From assembly GCA_016125075.1 (NCBI GenBank), contig WGMO01000003.1, positions 151,090 to 215,089 on the forward strand: DNA of 64,000 nt, in the 5' to 3' direction. This stretch comes from Terrimonas sp. (lineage in GTDB: Bacteria; Bacteroidota; Bacteroidia; Chitinophagales; Chitinophagaceae). The notes under the pieces were generated by a model, which was not told the DNA's origin, did not search any database, and saw only the letters and a program-made list of their open reading frames with translations. Below, piece by piece: positions 21,211 to 56,994 of this stretch; position 1 is the first letter of the stretch; every line of letters starts with the position of its first letter. Position numbers and translations under genes: made by a program.

Positions 21211-22779
21211 ATGCACATGCAAACAGGTTTCAAATACGGGATCGACCCCCTGACGACAGGGAAGGCCATTGCCATTGCGTCCGGAAAACTCAGGGCCTAT
21301 TTAGATGAGACAGCCCTTCAAAGAATCAGCGCGGCGGAAAATCATGTACGGGATATTGTAACCCGGGAAAAAACGGTCTATGGTGTCAATACCGGTTTCG
21401 GCATCCTTTCCAATACCCGGATTTCTGCTTCCGACACAATCACCCTTCAGCATAAGATATTGCAAAGTCATAGCGTTGGTGTCGGGGATCCTATTCCCGC
21501 CGAAATTGCAAAGCTGATGCTGGTTACGAAAGTACATGCCCTGGCACAAGGGTATAGTGGCGTCAGGCAGCAAACGCTGGAAAGAATTATCTGGCATATT
21601 GAAAATGACATAATTCCAATTGTGCCGGAGAAGGGTAGTGTAGGTGCCAGTGGAGATCTTGCCCCCCTGGCGCATTTATTCCTCCCCTTAATTGGCCTGG
21701 GGGAATGTTACCTGGATGGAGTAAGATTGGAAACAACAAAAATTTTAAAGCAAAAAAATAGACAAGCTTTACAATTGGGTCCAAAAGAGGGACTTGCATT
21801 GATCAATGGTACGCAATTTATTCTTTCATTTGCTGTGAAGGCAGTTCAAAGAATGCATAATTGCCTGGAAGCAGCCGATATTATTGGTGCCATGAGCCTT
21901 GAAGCGCTTACCGGTACAAAATCCCCATTCGACCAACGCCTTCATGCGTTACGTCCTTTTTCCGGCAACCAGCTGGTGGCGCAACGTTTAAGACTGCTGC
22001 TGGAGCATTCTGATATTATGCAAAGTCATATTGATTGCGGCCGGGTGCAGGATCCCTATAGTTTAAGGTGTATGCCACAGGTACATGGCGCTTCACGGAA
22101 TGCATGGTTACATTTAAAAAACTTAACGGAAGTTGAATTGAATGCTGTTACCGATAATCCAATAATATTCAACCAGGAAGATATTATTAGCGGGGGTAAT
22201 TTTCATGGACAGCCCCTTGCCCTGCCTCTTGATTATGCCTGCTTTGCTGCGGCTGAAATCGGCAATATCAGCGACCGGCGTTGTTATTTATTGCTGGAAG
22301 GGAAATGGGGTTTACCCCTGTTATTGATGAAGAATGTGGGTTTGAACAGCGGCTTTATGATACCACAATACACTACGGCCGCATTGGTTTCTGAAAACAA
22401 GACCCTCTGTTTCCCTTCCAGTGCGGATAGTATTCCTACTTCCCTGGGACAGGAGGATCATGTTTCAATGGGCAGCATCAGTGGCAGAAAAATAAACCGG
22501 GTGCTTGATAACCTTGAGTTTATCCTTGCTATTGAATTACTATCAGCCTGCCAGGCGATTGAATTCAGAAGGCCCCTGAAAAGCTCAGCGCTACTTGAAT
22601 TTGCACATGACTATGTGCGTGATTTTGTTGCCTTTGCAGAAGAAGACAGAATATTTGCTGAAGATATAAACCAGGTGGCGGGTTTGATTAAGGATTTTCG
22701 GTTTGTTGAAAAATTTAATGAATTCGCCGACGGCCTGCATATTGAACTCAGCAAGGGGTATGATGAGTTTTCATTTTGA
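21211..22779 (+). CDS. hutH: Histidine ammonia-lyase
   Basis: HutH removes ammonia from L-histidine to give urocanate, the first step of histidine use. The 522-residue protein has the MIO cofactor triad Ala146-Ser147-Gly148 in GSVGASGDLAPLAH, the catalytic tyrosine loop VYGVNTGFG and the C-terminal QEDHVSMGS. Length and motifs are full. ATG 21217 (third codon) is an equally possible start. It is followed on the plus strand by hutU after an intervening minus-strand lipoprotein gene. The remaining pathway genes are near 51-57 kb. Confidence 0.97.
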   Translation: MHMQTGFKYGIDPLTTGKAIAIASGKLRAYLDETALQRISAAENHVRDIVTREKTVYGVNTGFGILSNTRISASDTITLQHKILQSHSVGVGDPIPAEIAKLMLVTKVHALAQGYSGVRQQTLERIIWHIENDIIPIVPEKGSVGASGDLAPLAHLFLPLIGLGECYLDGVRLETTKILKQKNRQALQLGPKEGLALINGTQFILSFAVKAVQRMHNCLEAADIIGAMSLEALTGTKSPFDQRLHALRPFSGNQLVAQRLRLLLEHSDIMQSHIDCGRVQDPYSLRCMPQVHGASRNAWLHLKNLTEVELNAVTDNPIIFNQEDIISGGNFHGQPLALPLDYACFAAAEIGNISDRRCYLLLEGKWGLPLLLMKNVGLNSGFMIPQYTTAALVSENKTLCFPSSADSIPTSLGQEDHVSMGSISGRKINRVLDNLEFILAIELLSACQAIEFRRPLKSSALLEFAHDYVRDFVAFAEEDRIFAEDINQVAGLIKDFRFVEKFNEFADGLHIELSKGYDEFSF

Positions 22780-23948: not shown

Positions 23949-25679
23949 ATGAGTACCATTACGAAATCTCAATACGATCCGGTGAAGTACAAAACACCAG
24001 CCGGTACTTCATTACAATGTAAAGGCTGGATCCAGGAAGCGGCTTTGCGCATGTTACTCAATAACCTCAATCCCGAAGTGGCTGAACGTCCCGACGACCT
24101 GATTGTATATGGAGGAAGGGGTAAGGCTGCCCGCAACTTTGAAGCGTTGGATAATATCATCAGGGCTTTAAAGGTGTTGGAAAACAACGAATCTCTATTG
24201 ATTCAGAGTGGAAAACCGGTTGGGATTTTACAAACACATGAGGATGCCCCAAGAGTATTAATCAGCAATTCCCAGTTAGTGCCCAATTGGGCAAACTGGC
24301 AACATTTTGACGAGTTGGAGAAAAAAGGGTTGATGATGTATGGACAGATGACTGCGGGAAGCTGGATCTATATTGGTAGCCAGGGTATCGTTCAGGGCAC
24401 TTACGAAACCTATGCCGCACTGGCTGTTAAACATTTTGGAGGATCGTTAAAAGGTACCCTGAATGTAACGGCCGGTCTGGGGGGTATGGGCGGGGCACAA
24501 CCCCTGGCCATCACCATGAACGAGGGTGTGGCACTTGTGGCTGAAGTTGAGGAATGGAGGATCGATAAAAGGATAGAAACAAAATACCTGGATGAAAAAT
24601 ATATCGATATCGATGAAGCGATTGACCGGGCTTTGGAAGAAAAGAAAAAAGGGAATGCTACCAGTATTGGTGTTTTGTGCAATGCGGTACACCTGCTTCA
24701 AAGGCTGGTAGCACGAAATATCGTTCCTGATACTCTTACCGACCAAACCTCGGCACATGATCCATTGATCGGTTACTGGCCCCATGAAATTTCATATGAA
24801 CAAGCTAAAATATTAAGGGAACAGGATCCTGCATCCTATATTCACCGGGCTTATGAAAGTATGCATCTACATGTTCAGCTCATGCTAAAGTTAATGGACA
24901 GGGGAGCCATTACATTTGATTATGGCAATAATATCAGGGCACGTTCACAGGAATTTGAGGACAGGATCAAAAATGATACAGCCAATTTCGAGCCCTCCCT
25001 ATTCAGTTTCCGGTTTGGAAGAAGTTTTGATTTTCCCGGTTTTGTTCCCGCCTATATCCGGCCGCTTTTTTGTGAAGGGAAGGGACCATTTCGTTGGGCA
25101 GCACTTAGCGGTGACCCGCAGGATATTGCTGTTACGGATGAATTGATCGCCCGTCTTTTTCCGGAAAACAGGTCCCTGCTGCGATGGTTAAAACTGGCCA
25201 AAGAAAAGATCGCATTCCAGGGACTCCCTGCCAGGATCTGCTGGCTGGGGCAGGGGGAAAGGGAAAAAGCCGGATTGGCCTTTAACGAACTGGTCAGAAC
25301 CGGAAAGGTAAAAGCGCCCATTGTCATTGGAAGGGATCACCTGGATACAGGTAGTGTGGCCAGCCCGAACCGCGAAACCGAATCCATGAAAGATGGCAGT
25401 GATGCAGTTGCAGACTGGCCCATCCTGAATGCGCTGGTCAATACTGCAGGGGGTGCATCCTGGGTTTCCTTACACCATGGAGGGGGAGTGGGCATGGGGT
25501 ATTCTATTCATGCCGGTATGGTAATCGTAGCAGATGGAACTGATGAAGCAGCAGCCAGGTTGGGCCGGGTATTAAGAAATGACCCGGGTATGGGTGTGAT
25601 CCGTCATGCAGATGCCGGGTATGAAATTGCTAAGGATACCCTCCAAAAAAACGGGTTGGATTTTACGGACAGGTTGTAG
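23949..25679 (+). CDS. hutU: Urocanate hydratase
   Basis: HutU adds water to urocanate to give 4-imidazolone-5-propionate, using tightly bound NAD+ as an electrophile. The protein has 576 residues, slightly longer than the 555-560 usual in Proteobacteria. Visible motifs are [31 protein letters not shown], the Gly-rich NAD loop [10 protein letters not shown] and [10 protein letters not shown] with the conserved cysteine. It is second in the pathway but separated from hutH by an opposite-strand gene, so it needs its own promoter. Confidence 0.97.
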
Positions 25680-49506: not shown

Positions 49507-49714
49507 GTTGTACACAGACGTGGATAAAAAGCATATTCACCAAATGATGCGGCATTGAAGCTCTAATGAAGATCAGTAGAATAGGGTTCTAAATCTGCAC
49601 TTTAAGAGAAAATTTTGTATCCCCTGGTAACCACCGGGTCAAGATTTTTATGTCGTTCAGCGGCCCGATAAATTCCGGTATTACAAATTGATCTTTCTGC
49701 TCTATTTTCGGAAT

Positions 49715-50188
49715 ATGAAAACGGCAACGGTACAGGAAATAAAACAGGAATTATCCTCCCTGAAACCCAAAGAACTGATTGATCTTTCCCTGCGATTGGC
49801 CAGGTTTAAAAAGGAGAATAAAGAACTCATGACCTTTCTTCTTTTTGAGGCACATGACGAAGCGGGATATGTAGCCGGTATTAAACTGGAGGTAGATGAA
49901 TTATTTACTACCATCAATACCGCGCATTTGTACTTTGCCAAAAAAACAATCCGGAAAATACTGCGGTATATCAACAAATATATCCGGTATACCGGATCAA
50001 AAGAGGTTGAAACGGAACTGCTGATCTATTTCTGTAAAAAATTAAAGGAATCAGGAATACCGTTTGATCAAAACCTTGCTCTGCACAATCTCTATCTCAA
50101 CCAGGTCAGGAAAATTAAAAAATCGATCCAGGGCCTGCACGAAGACATTCAGCATGATTATCGAAAAGAGCTGGCCTTATTGGATTAG
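49715..50188 (+). CDS. Conserved helical hypothetical protein, 157 aa
   Basis: ATG 49715 is chosen (the ORF track starts nine codons earlier). The protein is nearly all helical and basic: QEIKQELSSLKPKELIDLSLRLARFKKENKELMTFLLFEAHDEAGY, then KKTIRKILRYINKYIRYTGSKEVETELLIYFCKKL. No signal peptide or known domain was recognised; the style is that of a conserved Bacteroidota cytoplasmic protein. It ends 39 bp before the Mur-ligase start, and the ligase promoter lies in that gap. Confidence 0.7.
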   Translation: MKTATVQEIKQELSSLKPKELIDLSLRLARFKKENKELMTFLLFEAHDEAGYVAGIKLEVDELFTTINTAHLYFAKKTIRKILRYINKYIRYTGSKEVETELLIYFCKKLKESGIPFDQNLALHNLYLNQVRKIKKSIQGLHEDIQHDYRKELALLD

Positions 50189-50204
50189 TTCTTTGCAGAA
50201 TATT

Positions 50205-50212
50205 TACATTTG
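50205..50212 (+). promoter_or_regulatory. -7 promoter element of the Mur-ligase/hutI unit
   Basis: TACATTTG is an exact TAnnTTTG match, with TTG 22 bp upstream. It overlaps the TTG start given in the ORF track, which therefore cannot be the real start; ATG 50228 is. Confidence 0.6.
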
Positions 50213-50227
50213 CGCAATAACATACCT

Positions 50228-51601
50228 ATGATATCCTCTGTAAATGATTTCCACAAAGTTTTTTTTATTGGGATCGCCGGTACGGGCATGAGCGCTATTG
50301 CACAGTATCTAAAAGGAATTGGCAAGGAGGTGGCTGGCTCTGACCGGTATTTTTCAGTGGAAAGCAAAGGAGAAACCCAGGAAAAACTGGAAGCCCTGGG
50401 TATCCAATGCTGTTTACAGGATGGTTCAGGAATAGCTCCCAGCACCCAACTGGTGGTAGTGTCTACCGCCATTGAAGACACGGTGCCGGATATGCAGCAG
50501 GCTAGGGAATTGAAAATTCCCATTATCCGCCGCAGCGAACTCCTGGCCATGATCGCCACCAGTAAAAAAACCATTGCAGTAGGAGGTACTTCCGGCAAAA
50601 GCACGACCAGTGCCATGATATTTGATATTTTAACGGCAGCCGGTATAGAACCGAGCATCATCAGCGGGGCCGGCCTCGTGAGTATTATCAAAGAAGGTAA
50701 GATCGGGAATGCAAGGGTAGGAAAGGGGGAATGGCTGGTGATTGAAGCCGATGAAAGTGATGGTTCGATCGTACAATACAAACCGGAGATCGGGCTCTTG
50801 CTCAATGTTGATAAGGACCATAAGGACATCAATGTATTAATGGAGATCTTTACGGTTTTTAAGAATAACAGTCAGAACTTCATTGTCAACCAGTCACACC
50901 CGCTGGCCAGTCAGTTGTCTAAGGGTACGGAACATGATTTTTCAATCAATGGTGAAGCTGCCGGAACGCAAGCAGAAGGATTTTCACAAACAGGACTTGA
51001 AATTCATTTTACCATCCAAGATCAGCCTTTTTCGATCAGGGTGGTCGGTCAGCACAATATGGAGAATGCAGCTGCAGCCGTAGCCGTTTGCCGGGAATTG
51101 GGAGTCAGTTTGGCTACCTGTGCCGGAGCTTTGCAAAGTTATGCAGGGATTTACAGACGGCACCAGGTTCTCGGTAAAAAGAAAGGGGTTATGGTGATTG
51201 ATGATTATGCCCATAACCCGGTAAAATGTGCCAAATCCATTGAGGCCTGTCAGCATATTGCCCCCAAGGTCATTGCCTGGTTCCAACCGCATGGCTACGG
51301 ACCTACCCGGTTTCTGAAAGACGATTTCGAAAAGGAGATCGGGGATGTTTTAAGGGAGGAAGATGAAATATGGATGAGCGAAATATTTTATGCTGGCGGT
51401 ACCGCAGAAAAAAACATTTCAGCTGCTGACCTGATCGCTGAAATAAGGGCTGCCGGGAAAAATGCTTTTTTTGTTGAAAAACGGGAAGAATTCCTTGAAA
51501 CGGTAAGACCCCATCTTACGCAGGATTGTGTTCTGCTGTTGATGGGAGCCAGGGATCCTTCTCTGGAATTATTTGCAGCATCTGTTTGGGAAAATCTATA
51601 A
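50228..51601 (+). CDS. MurC-like Mur ligase (UDP-N-acetylmuramate--amino acid ligase family)
   Basis: The 457-residue protein has the three Mur-ligase domains. The N-terminal Rossmann domain has FFIGIAGTGMSAIAQYLKGIGKEVAGSD. The central ATPase domain has GGTSGKSTTSAM, IEADESDGS and NVDKDHKD. The C-terminal domain has VMVIDDYAHNP and WFQPHGYGPTRF. The overall pattern is closest to MurC. The P-loop is GTSGKST instead of the usual GTHGKTT. No other dcw-cluster genes are nearby, so this is probably a paralog or an Mpl-type recycling enzyme. hutI starts 3 bp after it, so the two are almost surely co-transcribed. Confidence 0.82.
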   Translation: MISSVNDFHKVFFIGIAGTGMSAIAQYLKGIGKEVAGSDRYFSVESKGETQEKLEALGIQCCLQDGSGIAPSTQLVVVSTAIEDTVPDMQQARELKIPIIRRSELLAMIATSKKTIAVGGTSGKSTTSAMIFDILTAAGIEPSIISGAGLVSIIKEGKIGNARVGKGEWLVIEADESDGSIVQYKPEIGLLLNVDKDHKDINVLMEIFTVFKNNSQNFIVNQSHPLASQLSKGTEHDFSINGEAAGTQAEGFSQTGLEIHFTIQDQPFSIRVVGQHNMENAAAAVAVCRELGVSLATCAGALQSYAGIYRRHQVLGKKKGVMVIDDYAHNPVKCAKSIEACQHIAPKVIAWFQPHGYGPTRFLKDDFEKEIGDVLREEDEIWMSEIFYAGGTAEKNISAADLIAEIRAAGKNAFFVEKREEFLETVRPHLTQDCVLLLMGARDPSLELFAASVWENL

Positions 51602-51604
51602 TAC

Positions 51605-52843
51605 ATGACAACACTCGTCACCAATATCAGCCAACTGGTCAATGTTCGGGAAACGCCACAGTTGTTGCGGGGTAAAGAATTGAATGATCTGCCCGTGATA
51701 GAAGAGGCTTTCCTCCTGATTGAAGATGGGTTTATTGCCGGTTTTGGAAAAATGGATGCTATTGATCCTGCCAGCCTGAAGATCAGTCACCAGGTTGATG
51801 CCGCAGGGCAATTTGTCCTTCCCTGCTGGTGCGATAGCCATACCCATCTTGTATTTCCTTCCAGCCGGGAAGACGAGTTCCGGGACAAGATTAATGGATT
51901 AAGTTATGCAGCGATTGCGGAGAAGGGTGGTGGTATCCTCAATTCGGCCAAAAAACTTCTAGCAAGTTCTGAAGACAGCTTATTCAACAGTGCCTGGAAA
52001 AGGTTGGAAGAAGTGTCCAAATTGGGGACAGGTGCCATTGAAATCAAGAGTGGTTACGGATTGAGTACGGAAGGCGAGTTAAAGATGCTAAGGGTGATCA
52101 AAAAATTGAAGGAGCGTTCCAATCTGCCCATTAAGGCAACCTTCCTCGGTGCACATGCATACCCCCCGGCATTTAAGGATGACCACGAAGGGTATATCAA
52201 TGAGATCATCAATGAAATGATACCCAGGATCGCTGCTGAACAACTCGCCGATTTTATTGATGTGTTTTGTGAAAAAGGTTTTTTCTCTCCCGAAGAAACT
52301 GAAAAGATTTGCAGGGCCGGTTTGCAATGGGGTCTCCGGCCAAAGATCCACGCCAACCAGCTGCACCTGTCAGGAGGTACCCAGGTGGGGGTGAAACTGA
52401 AAGCTCTTTCTGTCGATCACCTGGAAACGATGGATGAAGCGGCCATACAAGCGCTGGCTGGTTCCGGTACGATCGGAACACTTTTACCAACAGCCGCATT
52501 TTTTTTACGGATGCCCATGCAACCCGCCCGTGCACTGATTGATGCCGGTTGTGCCATCGCTATTGCTTCCGATTTCAACCCGGGTTCATCCCCCAGCGGC
52601 AACATGAATCTGGTGGTGACAATGAGCTGTATACAAATGAAAATGCTGCCCGAAGAAGCCATCAATGCGGCAACGATTAATGGTGCCTGCGCCATGGATC
52701 TTTCTGCAGTTACAGGAAGTATTACTGTCGGCAAAATGGCTAACCTGATTTTTACAAAACCAATCCCTTCGATCGCCTACCTCCCTTATGCATTTGGCAG
52801 TAATCTGATTGATAAAGTGATGATCAGCGGTGGCTGGATTTAG
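51605..52843 (+). CDS. hutI: Imidazolonepropionase
   Basis: HutI hydrolyses 4-imidazolone-5-propionate to N-formimidoyl-L-glutamate, the third step of histidine use. It has 412 residues. The metal site of this amidohydrolase is seen as CDSHTHLVFPSSREDE, His in GAHAYPPAF, His in IHANQLHLSGG and Asp in ASDFNPGSSPSGN. It follows the MurC-like gene by 3 bp and precedes an antiporter gene by 48 bp. Its pathway partners are hutH and hutU near 21-26 kb and ftcD and hutG just downstream. Confidence 0.97.
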   Translation: MTTLVTNISQLVNVRETPQLLRGKELNDLPVIEEAFLLIEDGFIAGFGKMDAIDPASLKISHQVDAAGQFVLPCWCDSHTHLVFPSSREDEFRDKINGLSYAAIAEKGGGILNSAKKLLASSEDSLFNSAWKRLEEVSKLGTGAIEIKSGYGLSTEGELKMLRVIKKLKERSNLPIKATFLGAHAYPPAFKDDHEGYINEIINEMIPRIAAEQLADFIDVFCEKGFFSPEETEKICRAGLQWGLRPKIHANQLHLSGGTQVGVKLKALSVDHLETMDEAAIQALAGSGTIGTLLPTAAFFLRMPMQPARALIDAGCAIAIASDFNPGSSPSGNMNLVVTMSCIQMKMLPEEAINAATINGACAMDLSAVTGSITVGKMANLIFTKPIPSIAYLPYAFGSNLIDKVMISGGWI

Positions 52844-52891: not shown

Positions 52892-54121
52892 ATGAATAAT
52901 ATAGAAGCGGAAGAACTGCTTATTATTTTTTGCAGCCTCGTGGTACTTTCCTATTTGTTTTCCATCATTGGAAAATACCTGCGGCTGCCTTCTGTTCTCC
53001 TGCTCTTATTTACAGGTATGGGCATTCGGGCTATTGCCGACACGTATAATACGGCCATCTTAATCCCTAACAGGATCGTTGAGGCGCTGGGTGTAGTAGG
53101 GCTGATCATGATTGTACTGGAAGCCGGGCTTGACCTTAAGATCGAAAAAGCCAAATTGAAACTGATCCGGAATTCCTTCCTGTCGGCCCTCATCATTTTT
53201 CTGTTATCGGTGGCCTCCTTAACGGCCCTGTTGAATTTCTGGCTGAACGAGGAGAATATCCTGAACTGTATCATTTATGCGATACCGTTATCTATCATCA
53301 GCAGTGCCATCGTTTTACCCAGCCTTCATACCCTGAATAAAAATCAGCAGGAGTTCCTGGTATATGAAGCATCCTTTTCCGACATCATCGGTATCCTGGC
53401 TTTTAATTATTTTATTGCAGAGGAAATCATGACCTGGAAATCGTTTGCTGTGTTCGGAGGCGGTATCCTGGTCTCCATCATCCTGTCCCTGGTGCTGTCA
53501 CTGGTCCTTTTCCTGATCCTGGCAAAAGTGAAACTCAATATCAAGTTCTTCCTGATATTTTCTTTACTGATCCTTTTATATGCAGGGGGGAAGTTGTTAC
53601 ACCTGCCTTCCCTGCTGATCATCATGATCTTTGGTTTACTGATTAATAATTGGGACAAGATGAAATGGGAGCGCCTGACAAGGTATTTTCCGGAATCCCA
53701 GATTTCGCCCCTGCATGAATTATTGCATTCGATCACAGCCGAATCCTCTTTCCTGATCCGTACATTCTTTTTTATCCTTTTTGGGTATTCGATCGACCTG
53801 CATTTGCTGATGCAGGAAGAAGTGATCGCAGTGGGTTTGATCATTGTGTTCTGTTTATTGCTGATCAGGTTCCTGTACCTCCGTTTCTTTGTCAAAACGA
53901 ATGTTTTTCCTGAATTGTTTTTTATGCCGAGAGGTTTGATTACGATCGTGCTTTTCTATAAGATCCCGCAGTCGATGAAACTCCATGATTTTAACGATGG
54001 CATCCTTTTTTTTGTCATCCTTACCACCAGTATCATCATGGCCCTGGGGATGATCTTTTATAAAAAGAAGCCAGATGAGATCGTTGAAGAAAGGCAGTTT
54101 GTTGAATCAGAGATATTCTGA
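52892..54121 (+). CDS. Cation:proton antiporter (Na+/H+ exchanger family)
   Basis: The protein has 409 residues and about 11-12 membrane helices, starting EELLIIFCSLVVLSYLFSIIGKYLRLPSVLLLLFTGMGI. The region IPLSIISSAIVLPSLHTLNKNQQEFLVYEASFSDIIGILAFNYF holds the family core with a helix-breaking Asp. The C-terminus is short and lacks a TrkA or other regulatory domain. The ion (Na+ or K+) cannot be told. Being inside the hut group, it could balance charge or pH during histidine use (inference), or be unrelated. Confidence 0.88.
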   Translation: MNNIEAEELLIIFCSLVVLSYLFSIIGKYLRLPSVLLLLFTGMGIRAIADTYNTAILIPNRIVEALGVVGLIMIVLEAGLDLKIEKAKLKLIRNSFLSALIIFLLSVASLTALLNFWLNEENILNCIIYAIPLSIISSAIVLPSLHTLNKNQQEFLVYEASFSDIIGILAFNYFIAEEIMTWKSFAVFGGGILVSIILSLVLSLVLFLILAKVKLNIKFFLIFSLLILLYAGGKLLHLPSLLIIMIFGLLINNWDKMKWERLTRYFPESQISPLHELLHSITAESSFLIRTFFFILFGYSIDLHLLMQEEVIAVGLIIVFCLLLIRFLYLRFFVKTNVFPELFFMPRGLITIVLFYKIPQSMKLHDFNDGILFFVILTTSIIMALGMIFYKKKPDEIVEERQFVESEIF

Positions 54122-54251: not shown

Positions 54252-55904
54252 ATGCAACAAATCATTGAATGTGTCCCTAATTTCAGTGAAGGAAGGGACA
54301 TGGCTGTTATCGGACAAATTACCCGCGAAATTGAATCCATAGATGGCGTACGTTTACTGGACGTTGATCCAGGCAAGGCGACCAATCGCACGGTGGTGAC
54401 CTTTGTGGGTCCACCCGACGCAGTGATCGAAGCTGCTTTCCTGGCCATTCAAAAAGCGGGTGAACTGATTGATATGCGCAAACAAAAAGGGGCCCACTCC
54501 AGAATGGGTGCCACGGATGTTTGCCCGCTGATACCCGTTGCCAATATAACCATGGAGGAAACCTGTCAGTATGCCCGGGCTTTAGCCAGACGCGTGGGAG
54601 AGGAATTACAAATACCGGTCTATTTGTACGAAGCGGCACAAACTGATAAATCGCGAAGCAATCTTTCCGTAATTCGGGCGGGTGAATATGAAGGTTTTTT
54701 CGAAAAAATCAAAAACCCGGTATGGAAACCGGATTTCGGTCCCGCAATATTTGATGCTAAAAGAGGAGCCACGGTCATCGGCGCGCGGGATTTCCTGGTG
54801 GCCTATAACGTGAATCTCAACACGACATCCACCCGCAGGGCCAATGCGATCGCTTTTGATATAAGGGAGGCCGGAAGAAATATCATCGAAAACGGGGTCA
54901 AAGTCAACCAACCGGGGTCTTTGAAATCTGTAAAAGCCATTGGTTGGTATATCGAAGAATATGGTATCGCCCAGATCAGCATCAATCTTACCAATCTCCA
55001 GGTTACACCCCTGCATATTGCGTTTGATGAAGCCTGTAAGAAAGCAGCGGCAAGGGGAATAAGGGTAACCGGCAGTGAACTGGTTGGATTGATCCCTTTG
55101 AAATCCATGCTGGATGCCGGTAAATATTTTCTCCGGAAACAGAAACGTTCGTTGGGGGTATCGGAAGCTGAACTGGTCAGGATCGCCATAAAATCGATGG
55201 GACTTGATGAACTCTCTCCATTTGATCCCAACGAAAAAATCATTGAATACCGGCTCAGGAATGATGCGGAATCTAAATTGGTCAAAATGCCTTTGAATGC
55301 ATTTGCCGATGAAACCGCCAGCGAAAGCCCCGCACCTGGTGGGGGTTCTATTGCTGCCTATATCGGTGCATTGGGAGCGTCCCTGGCTACGATGGTGGCC
55401 AATCTCTCCTCGCATAAAAGAGGGTGGGACGACCGTTGGGAAACATTCAGCGACTGGGCGGAAAGGGGGCAGTATTATAAGGATGTGCTCCTGCAACTGG
55501 TCGACCTGGATACAGCGGCCTTCAACAGGATCATGGGGGCGATGGGTATGGCAAAATCAACTGAAGCAGAGCAATCAGCCAGGAATAAAGCTATACAGGA
55601 AGCAACCCGTTATGCCATCGAGATACCTTTTAAAGTGATGGAAACCGCTGCTGAAAGTATGGACCTGATAAAAGCTATGGCAGTCGGGGGCAACCCTAAC
55701 TCTGTTTCGGATGCAGGAGTTGGGGCTTTATGTGCACGGTCAGCTGTCCTGGGTGCCTTTATGAATGTCCGGATCAACGCAGCCGGTTATGCGGATAAGG
55801 AATTCGTCACGGAAATGATCAGCAGGGGAAAAAAGATTGAGAATAAAACAATAGCTTTAGAACAGGAAATCTTAAATATTGTCAATGAAAAAATCGGATG
55901 TTAA
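54252..55904 (+). CDS. ftcD: Bifunctional glutamate formimidoyltransferase / formimidoyl-THF cyclodeaminase
   Basis: The 550-residue protein moves the formimino group of N-formimidoyl-glutamate to tetrahydrofolate and then closes it to 5,10-methenyl-THF with release of ammonia. The transferase part (about 1-290) starts QQIIECVPNFSEGRD and has GAHSRMGATDVCPLIPV. The cyclodeaminase part (about 340-550) has PAPGGGSIAAYIGALGASLATMVANLS and NAAGYADKEFVTEM. Fusion in one chain is as in vertebrates and many Bacteroidota. Its stop overlaps the hutG start region by about 20 bp. Confidence 0.96.
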   Translation: MQQIIECVPNFSEGRDMAVIGQITREIESIDGVRLLDVDPGKATNRTVVTFVGPPDAVIEAAFLAIQKAGELIDMRKQKGAHSRMGATDVCPLIPVANITMEETCQYARALARRVGEELQIPVYLYEAAQTDKSRSNLSVIRAGEYEGFFEKIKNPVWKPDFGPAIFDAKRGATVIGARDFLVAYNVNLNTTSTRRANAIAFDIREAGRNIIENGVKVNQPGSLKSVKAIGWYIEEYGIAQISINLTNLQVTPLHIAFDEACKKAAARGIRVTGSELVGLIPLKSMLDAGKYFLRKQKRSLGVSEAELVRIAIKSMGLDELSPFDPNEKIIEYRLRNDAESKLVKMPLNAFADETASESPAPGGGSIAAYIGALGASLATMVANLSSHKRGWDDRWETFSDWAERGQYYKDVLLQLVDLDTAAFNRIMGAMGMAKSTEAEQSARNKAIQEATRYAIEIPFKVMETAAESMDLIKAMAVGGNPNSVSDAGVGALCARSAVLGAFMNVRINAAGYADKEFVTEMISRGKKIENKTIALEQEILNIVNEKIGC

Positions 55905-56994
55905 CGAAATGGCTGATTCTTTTCAAAAGCAAAATGCCATGCATCATTTCAAAACCTATCACAAACAGGATATCCTGTCCCTGACAAAGATCAGGCGATT
56001 TGAGACAAAACTGGGCGAAAGGCTTCAGGTGATCCACGACACCAGCAATATGGAAGCATCCATCAGTGCTTCCACAGCACAATATGTATTATTCGGCATT
56101 CCGGAAGACCTTGGTGCAAAAGGAAATCATGGTATAGGCGGAACAGACACGCTGTGGATCCCATTCCTGCAAAGTTTTTTGAATATCCAGAGCAATGATT
56201 TTTTTGACGGGGATAATGTACTCCTGGCCGGACATTTTGATTTTGGCGATATCGAATACCTGATCGATACTACGGCCAAAAGTGAGGATGAAAAAATTGA
56301 AGCCTATCGCCATGCCGTGAATACAGTCGATAATGAAGTTGAGCAACTGGTCAAAATGATTACGGCGGCAAAAAAGATACCGGTGGTTGTTGGTGGCGGG
56401 CATAATAATTCATATCCCCTGATCAAAGGGTCTGCTAAAGGCTGGCATAAGGCGGGCGTTATACCGCTGGCTCAGATCAATTGCATCAACCTCGATGCCC
56501 ATGCTGATTACCGCCCGGCAGAAGGCCGGCACAGTGGTAATGCTTTTCGCTACGCCGAAGATGATGGTTATTTACAGAAATATTGTATTATCTGCCTGCA
56601 TGAAAACTATCTGCCCCAGAATGTCTGGCTCGATATCGTGAATAACCCGTTTATAGACTTTATCACGCATGAGGACATCTTTATCCATGAAAAAAGAAGT
56701 TTTATGCAGGCGGTGGCCCACGCTACCGGGTTTACAGAAGACACGATGACCGGTATCGATATTGACCTTGATTGTATACAGAATACGTTGAGCAGCGCCA
56801 TGACCCCCGTCGGGATCCTGCCCAAACATGCCCGGCAATATGTATCGTTTGCCGCTGCCGATTCCAAACCGGCATACCTGCATATCTGTGAAGGGGCAAC
56901 CCGACTTGCAGATGGAAGGGTAGATGCTACTAACGGGAAATTGATCAGCTACCTGGTAAGTGATTTTATCAAAGCCCGGCAATCAGTCTCCTGA
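55885..56994 (+). CDS. hutG: Formimidoylglutamase-type ureohydrolase (arginase family)
   Basis: The 369-residue protein (ATG 55885; ATG 55909 is an alternative) belongs to the arginase family. The Mn2+ site is seen as GGGHNNSYPLIKG, NLDAHADYRPAEGRHSGN and GIDIDLDCIQ. Position next to ftcD and hutI supports formimidoylglutamase (formimidoyl-glutamate to glutamate plus formamide) over agmatinase or arginase. It overlaps the ftcD end, indicating translational coupling. Having both FtcD and HutG gives two exits for the same intermediate. Confidence 0.88.
   Translation: MKKSDVNEMADSFQKQNAMHHFKTYHKQDILSLTKIRRFETKLGERLQVIHDTSNMEASISASTAQYVLFGIPEDLGAKGNHGIGGTDTLWIPFLQSFLNIQSNDFFDGDNVLLAGHFDFGDIEYLIDTTAKSEDEKIEAYRHAVNTVDNEVEQLVKMITAAKKIPVVVGGGHNNSYPLIKGSAKGWHKAGVIPLAQINCINLDAHADYRPAEGRHSGNAFRYAEDDGYLQKYCIICLHENYLPQNVWLDIVNNPFIDFITHEDIFIHEKRSFMQAVAHATGFTEDTMTGIDIDLDCIQNTLSSAMTPVGILPKHARQYVSFAAADSKPAYLHICEGATRLADGRVDATNGKLISYLVSDFIKARQSVS

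Follow-up and report, generated by a model that had tools for sequence, protein, structure and literature searches.

The window, a 64,000-nucleotide stretch of a Terrimonas sp. contig, carries a gene for a Mur ligase directly upstream of hutI, raising the question of what such an enzyme does in a histidine-degradation unit. The first-pass annotation had described a MurC-like ligase with an altered P-loop, lying 3 bp from hutI with no other cell-wall genes nearby. All of this was found in the sequence: the motif reads GGTSGKSTT at 50582-50608, the stop codon of the ligase (51599-51601) and the ATG of hutI (51605) are separated by 3 bp, hutI being confirmed by TIGR01224, and the open reading frames between 46 and 59 kb included no further recognisable cell-wall gene. 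No paper describing the ligase or its pairing with hutI was found in the literature. The features of the locus are collected in Table 1.

Table 1. Coordinates of the ligase gene, its key motifs and its neighbours, numbered from the first letter of the window.
Feature	Position	Strand	Evidence or remark
Small conserved protein, start uncertain, upstream of ligase	49688..50188	+	No Pfam/NCBIfam match
Bacteroidota-type promoter-like site TTG-N22-TACATTTG	50180..50212	+	TTG at 50180, TAnnTTTG at 50205
MurC-derived ligase, proposed murein-peptide ligase	50228..51601	+	457 aa; ATG start, Pfam and ortholog alignment
P-loop GTSGKST	50585..50605	+	MurC and Mpl-type have G[TS]HGK[TS][TS]
DDYAHNPVK	51200..51226	+	Tyr346/His348 equivalents kept (Tyr or Phe); E. 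coli MurC Glu358 -> Lys333
FQPHGYGPT	51281..51307	+	H. influenzae MurC Arg377 -> Gly356, Arg380 -> Pro359; His376 kept
hutI, imidazolonepropionase	51605..52843	+	TIGR01224, 399 bits (cut-off 298)
Na/H-exchanger-type transporter, inside hut unit	52892..54121	+	PF00999
ftcD, formiminotransferase-cyclodeaminase	54252..55904	+	PF07837/PF02971/PF04961
hutG-like formimidoylglutamase, start uncertain	55879..56994	+	PF00491, weak TIGR01227

A subfamily close to MurC

The open reading frame, whose start codon was set by ortholog alignment, contains all three Mur ligase domains above cut-off (PF01225, 57.8 bits; PF08245, 47.2 bits; PF02875, 54.4 bits). The catalytic features of the superfamily are present, with the P-loop Lys124 and the Mg-binding Glu173 and His198 found in 128 of 128 ligases, and the adenine-binding Asn residues kept with few exceptions. 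On the murC model TIGR01082 the protein reached 318.4 bits, just below the curated cut-off of 335.1, versus 119.5 bits on the mpl model TIGR01081, far below the cut-off of 388.7. MurC is also the closest family by profile comparison (hhalign, 331.5 to MurC versus 219.5 to Mpl) and by tree, where the ligase forms a separate long branch outside the Mpl clade, joined to MurC (98/94). The AlphaFold model (pLDDT 88) predicted the three-domain fold of MurC, with 1p31/1p3d as the best PDB match (TM about 0.87), against a TM of 0.68 to Mpl (E. coli b4233, PDB 3hn7). Ligase and MurC further share the UDP-binding loop, the ATP/Mg residues and the lack of the Mpl insert; the Mpl motif (S/T)AFFDKRSK is absent, the ligase reading EADESDGSIVQYKP.

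Despite this kinship, the ligase departs from MurC at conserved positions. All 117 orthologs carry the motif GTSGKST, whereas the 22 canonical MurCs without exception read G[TS]HGK[TS][TS]; judged from these alignments, the P-loop change is the mark of a discrete subfamily and not noise. In H. influenzae MurC, the incoming amino acid is contacted by His376, Arg377, Arg380, Tyr346 and His348 (PMC3060825). The two histidines are kept in the ligase and the tyrosine is Tyr or Phe, whereas the position of Arg380 is Pro in all 128 ligases, Ser in 20 of 20 Bacteroidota Mpl-type proteins (described below), Met in E. coli Mpl and Arg in every one of the 22 canonical MurCs. The Gly found in place of Arg377 is less telling, since Bacteroidota MurC has Leu there. 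At the position of E. coli MurC Glu358, Lys is found in 128/128 ligases and 20/20 Mpl-type proteins, as opposed to Glu in 22/22 MurCs. We classify the ligase neither as MurC nor as Mpl, because the defining features of both were tested and it has the full set of neither.

The genome encodes eight Mur_ligase_M proteins: MurC, MurD and MurE (contig C12), MurF (C22), a protein of the size of a MurF-Alr fusion (C26), FolC (C5), a cyanophycin-synthetase-like protein (C27) and the window ligase; no Mpl was found among them. The canonical murC (G000:C12:50281-51609; 392 bits on TIGR01082, cut-off 335; P-loop GTHGKTT) lies directly after murG within the dcw cluster, and the window gene, which lies outside that cluster, is thus not the only murC-like gene of its genome. 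A 474-aa open frame on C5, considered as a candidate Mpl, was rejected as FolC. Two of the eight are MurF-type proteins, the stand-alone MurF (L002, G000:C22) and an 829-aa frame with the size of a MurF-alanine racemase fusion (L004, G000:C26), and the cyanophycin-synthetase-like protein (L006, G000:C27) is 879 aa long.

A search of 41 related genomes gave two peaks, with orthologs of 63-71% identity in 9 of the 25 family genomes, then canonical MurC at ~30%, and nothing between. The best 80 named relatives were mostly Chitinophagaceae/Chitinophagales, the others being Bacteroidetes or Sphingobacteriales. At 1e-55, a search of the class found the ligase in 4 of 395 genomes, all of this family. 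Searching the phylum with an ortholog profile returned a single copy outside the family, in genome G319. Subfamily members scored at least 687 bits in this search and MurC-level matches at most 246 bits, with nothing in between; tblastn against plasmids likewise gave only MurC-level matches (~32%). A degenerate DNA pattern for HGYxPT, run on 396 phylum genomes, matched mostly by chance and revealed the G319 copy. This copy (L245, 9034-10416), in another family of the class, is flanked by an unrelated gene and an rsmI-looking gene, consistent with horizontal transfer. One metagenome-assembled genome titled Streptomyces griseus (L158) bears a Chitinophagaceae-type ligase and hut genes, its title being presumably wrong.

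Mutual exclusion with a Bacteroidota Mpl-type protein

No proteobacterial-type Mpl was detected at 1e-60 when 200 family genomes were searched with TIGR01081. The absence of any Mpl from the family, as this search had implied, was overturned by the finding of a divergent Mpl-type protein: family genomes without the ligase carry instead this 455-aa protein (for example, L274:6254-7618). Among the 200 genomes, 81 encode the ligase, 109 the Mpl-type protein, none both and 10 neither (Fisher p 2.6e-45, with no correction for kinship). Eight of the last group are incomplete or highly fragmented; the other two (G774 and G153) appear close to complete, and the shared function is therefore dispensable. 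The two proteins have in common the Lys at position 358 and the loss of Arg380, and differ in sequence (about 26% identity), in the insert EKRPKF and P-loop GSHGKTT of the Mpl-type protein, and in their neighbours. The Mpl-type gene adjoins genes for a DnaQ-type exonuclease and a glycosyltransferase, and its neighbourhood holds no recycling genes. Those immediately flanking the ligase are not recycling genes either, except for an NlpC/P60 protein found 1-5 kb away in one conserved context.

Given this mutual exclusion of ligase and Mpl-type protein, we favour a reading that the first-pass annotation had kept as a fallback, namely a recycling enzyme sharing a promoter. The ligase probably works like an Mpl, and we assign a probability of about 0.66 to the reading that a MurC derivative here serves as murein-peptide ligase, couples recycled stem peptide to UDP-MurNAc and takes the place of Mpl. 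From the mutual exclusion and the residue changes, we infer a substrate and a reaction. The ligase would phosphorylate the lactyl carboxylate of UDP-MurNAc in an ATP-dependent step, and a recycled stem peptide (L-Ala-gamma-D-Glu-mDAP or a similar one) would then be attached through its amino terminus to the activated UDP-MurNAc, a ligation that would bypass MurC, MurD and MurE. In a stem peptide, the carboxylate of L-Ala is already in an amide bond, so that a peptide substrate would fit the loss of the MurC arginine that holds the free carboxylate of L-alanine; the residue changes hence suggest such a substrate. The ligase shares with Mpl the loss of that arginine and would also share this reaction; it is derived from MurC and appears to have converged on the Mpl role. 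LdcA (peptidase S66) works with Mpl, and murein-peptide recycling is plausible because this family is present in two copies in the genome and in 39 of 41 relatives.

The exclusion by itself shows interchangeability only, and the two proteins might share a job other than tripeptide recycling, such as the addition of another amine to UDP-MurNAc or a related nucleotide. In most loci neither gene stands among recycling genes, and the Mpl-type protein scores below cut-off on both family models, with 259 bits for MurC and 189 bits for Mpl (cut-off 388.7); in the tree it joins E. coli Mpl only weakly (85/31). By profile comparison, however, it is nearer E. coli Mpl than MurC (309.6 versus 258.7), its best PDB match is, narrowly, Mpl 3hn7, and it keeps the KRxKF insert of Mpl (EKRPKF versus DKRSKF); LdcA, as noted above, is present. 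By homology, the displaced protein would be an Mpl, and we consider a different shared job possible but doubtful.

The Arg-to-Pro change seen throughout the ligases would also fit a different small amine. The ligase could then represent a new specificity class, joining to UDP-MurNAc not L-alanine or the usual murein tripeptide but some other amine, for instance a stem peptide with amidation or another modification, or an amine from outside murein. Its displacement of Mpl would reflect a change in what these lineages salvage, and under such a specificity the hut link would be a sign that amino-acid and wall-peptide salvage are controlled jointly. We regard this as unlikely.

Less probable still is a second MurC, an L-alanine ligase serving as a back-up or condition-specific isozyme. 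The ligase is indeed nearest MurC by sequence, profile and fold, and comes within reach of the murC cut-off, but the amino-acid-binding arginine is invariably replaced by Pro, those ligase-bearing genomes that were checked retain a canonical MurC, and a back-up would leave the exclusion of the Mpl-type protein unexplained.

Repeated swaps between the two families

The exclusion could also reflect clade structure, the two families merely residing in different lineages with no functional replacement. Ligase genomes do fall mostly in a few related clades, and a kinship-corrected test, which has only 5-6 pairs and in which 4-5 phylogenetically independent pairs go in the same direction and none is opposed, gave p 0.0625, which is above 0.05 when taken alone. 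On a tree of eight dcw proteins from 34 genomes, however, the ligase/Mpl-type label requires 5 changes, and a single ligase clade within the family was rejected (p-AU 2.8e-5). The switches number at least five, one of them in another family: G319 encodes a ligase of 67% identity and lacks the Mpl-type protein, which is present in all seven of its sampled relatives (52-54% identity). In addition, two genera (g415 and g47) each include species with the ligase and species with the Mpl-type protein. Clade structure is therefore a most improbable explanation. Taken together, exclusion and repeated switching form the pattern of functional replacement, and by the dcw tree the swap took place about five times, so that the ligase has probably taken over the job repeatedly and independently. 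Under the murein-peptide reading, the ligase gene would have spread between lineages, each time displacing the Bacteroidota Mpl-type protein.

The hutI pairing and wider implications

The ligase-hutI pairing is not peculiar to this genome. Among 128 ligase loci with flanking sequence, 40 show a hut context, 44 a second conserved context, 36 neither, and the remaining 8 are too short for assignment. hutI is the immediate next gene on the same strand in 29 loci; Flavihumibacter-type operons have the order hutH-hutU-ligase-hutI, with hutG further down, and Ferruginibacter loci the order ligase-hutI-ftcD. In the window, about 25 kb separate hutI from hutH and hutU (21217-22776 and 24015-25676). 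The second context comprises a DUF1905-like gene, guanine deaminase, a sigma factor, the NlpC/P60 protein and a pyrophosphatase, names that come from reading the sequences and not from family searches. The divergent ligases L228, L238, L240 and L246 adjoin a PaaE-like reductase and a TetR-like regulator, indicating that the ligase has also settled beside phenylacetate-type genes. Relatives of the small protein upstream of the ligase occur in 19 ligase loci, often in the same place. The Na/H-exchanger-type transporter, located between hutI and the downstream hut genes, also adjoins hutI in L047, L048, L119, L133, L135 and L136 and may be part of the hut unit.

The first-pass annotation had placed ligase and hutI behind one promoter. 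The TAnnTTTG just 5' of the ligase is the only one on the + strand between 49.3 and 57.1 kb, and three TTG/TAnnTTTG pairs occur on that strand of the whole window; a sigma-70 promoter scan showed no excess over shuffles. The single promoter-like site is suggestive only: one shared promoter is plausible, and the two genes may be co-transcribed.

The hut context is found only in a single derived section (79 rows) of the ligase tree and needs at least 10 changes on that tree, and the deep branches never adjoin hut. The pairing is thus real, conserved and recurrent, but secondary and not universal. Because 44 loci have the other context, the deep branches lack hut neighbours and one ligase-bearing genome (G023) has no hutI match above cut-off, the ligase is independent of histidine breakdown. 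A histidine-specific role as core function was accordingly rejected: although the ligase lies directly 5' of hutI in many lineages, and even between hutU and hutI in the Flavihumibacter-type operons, most orthologs are not beside hut and none of the residue changes suggests that the substrate is an imidazole or formimino compound, so that the suggested joining of glutamate or a pathway intermediate to a muropeptide finds no support and is extremely improbable. The pairing with hutI would instead be a secondary operon arrangement, perhaps for co-expression of salvage genes.

If the ligase is a murein-peptide ligase, murein-peptide recycling would have arisen a second time, from MurC, and two ligases would interchange across a family of bacteria. 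Recycling would in fact take place in genomes that are now scored as Mpl-negative. Sequence models put the ligase nearest MurC, and any annotation of it under that name would be wrong. The paired families would then offer a natural experiment on how a Mur ligase shifts from an amino acid to a peptide substrate, with a handful of fixed substitutions (Arg380 to Pro, Glu358 to Lys and P-loop His to Ser) open to direct test.
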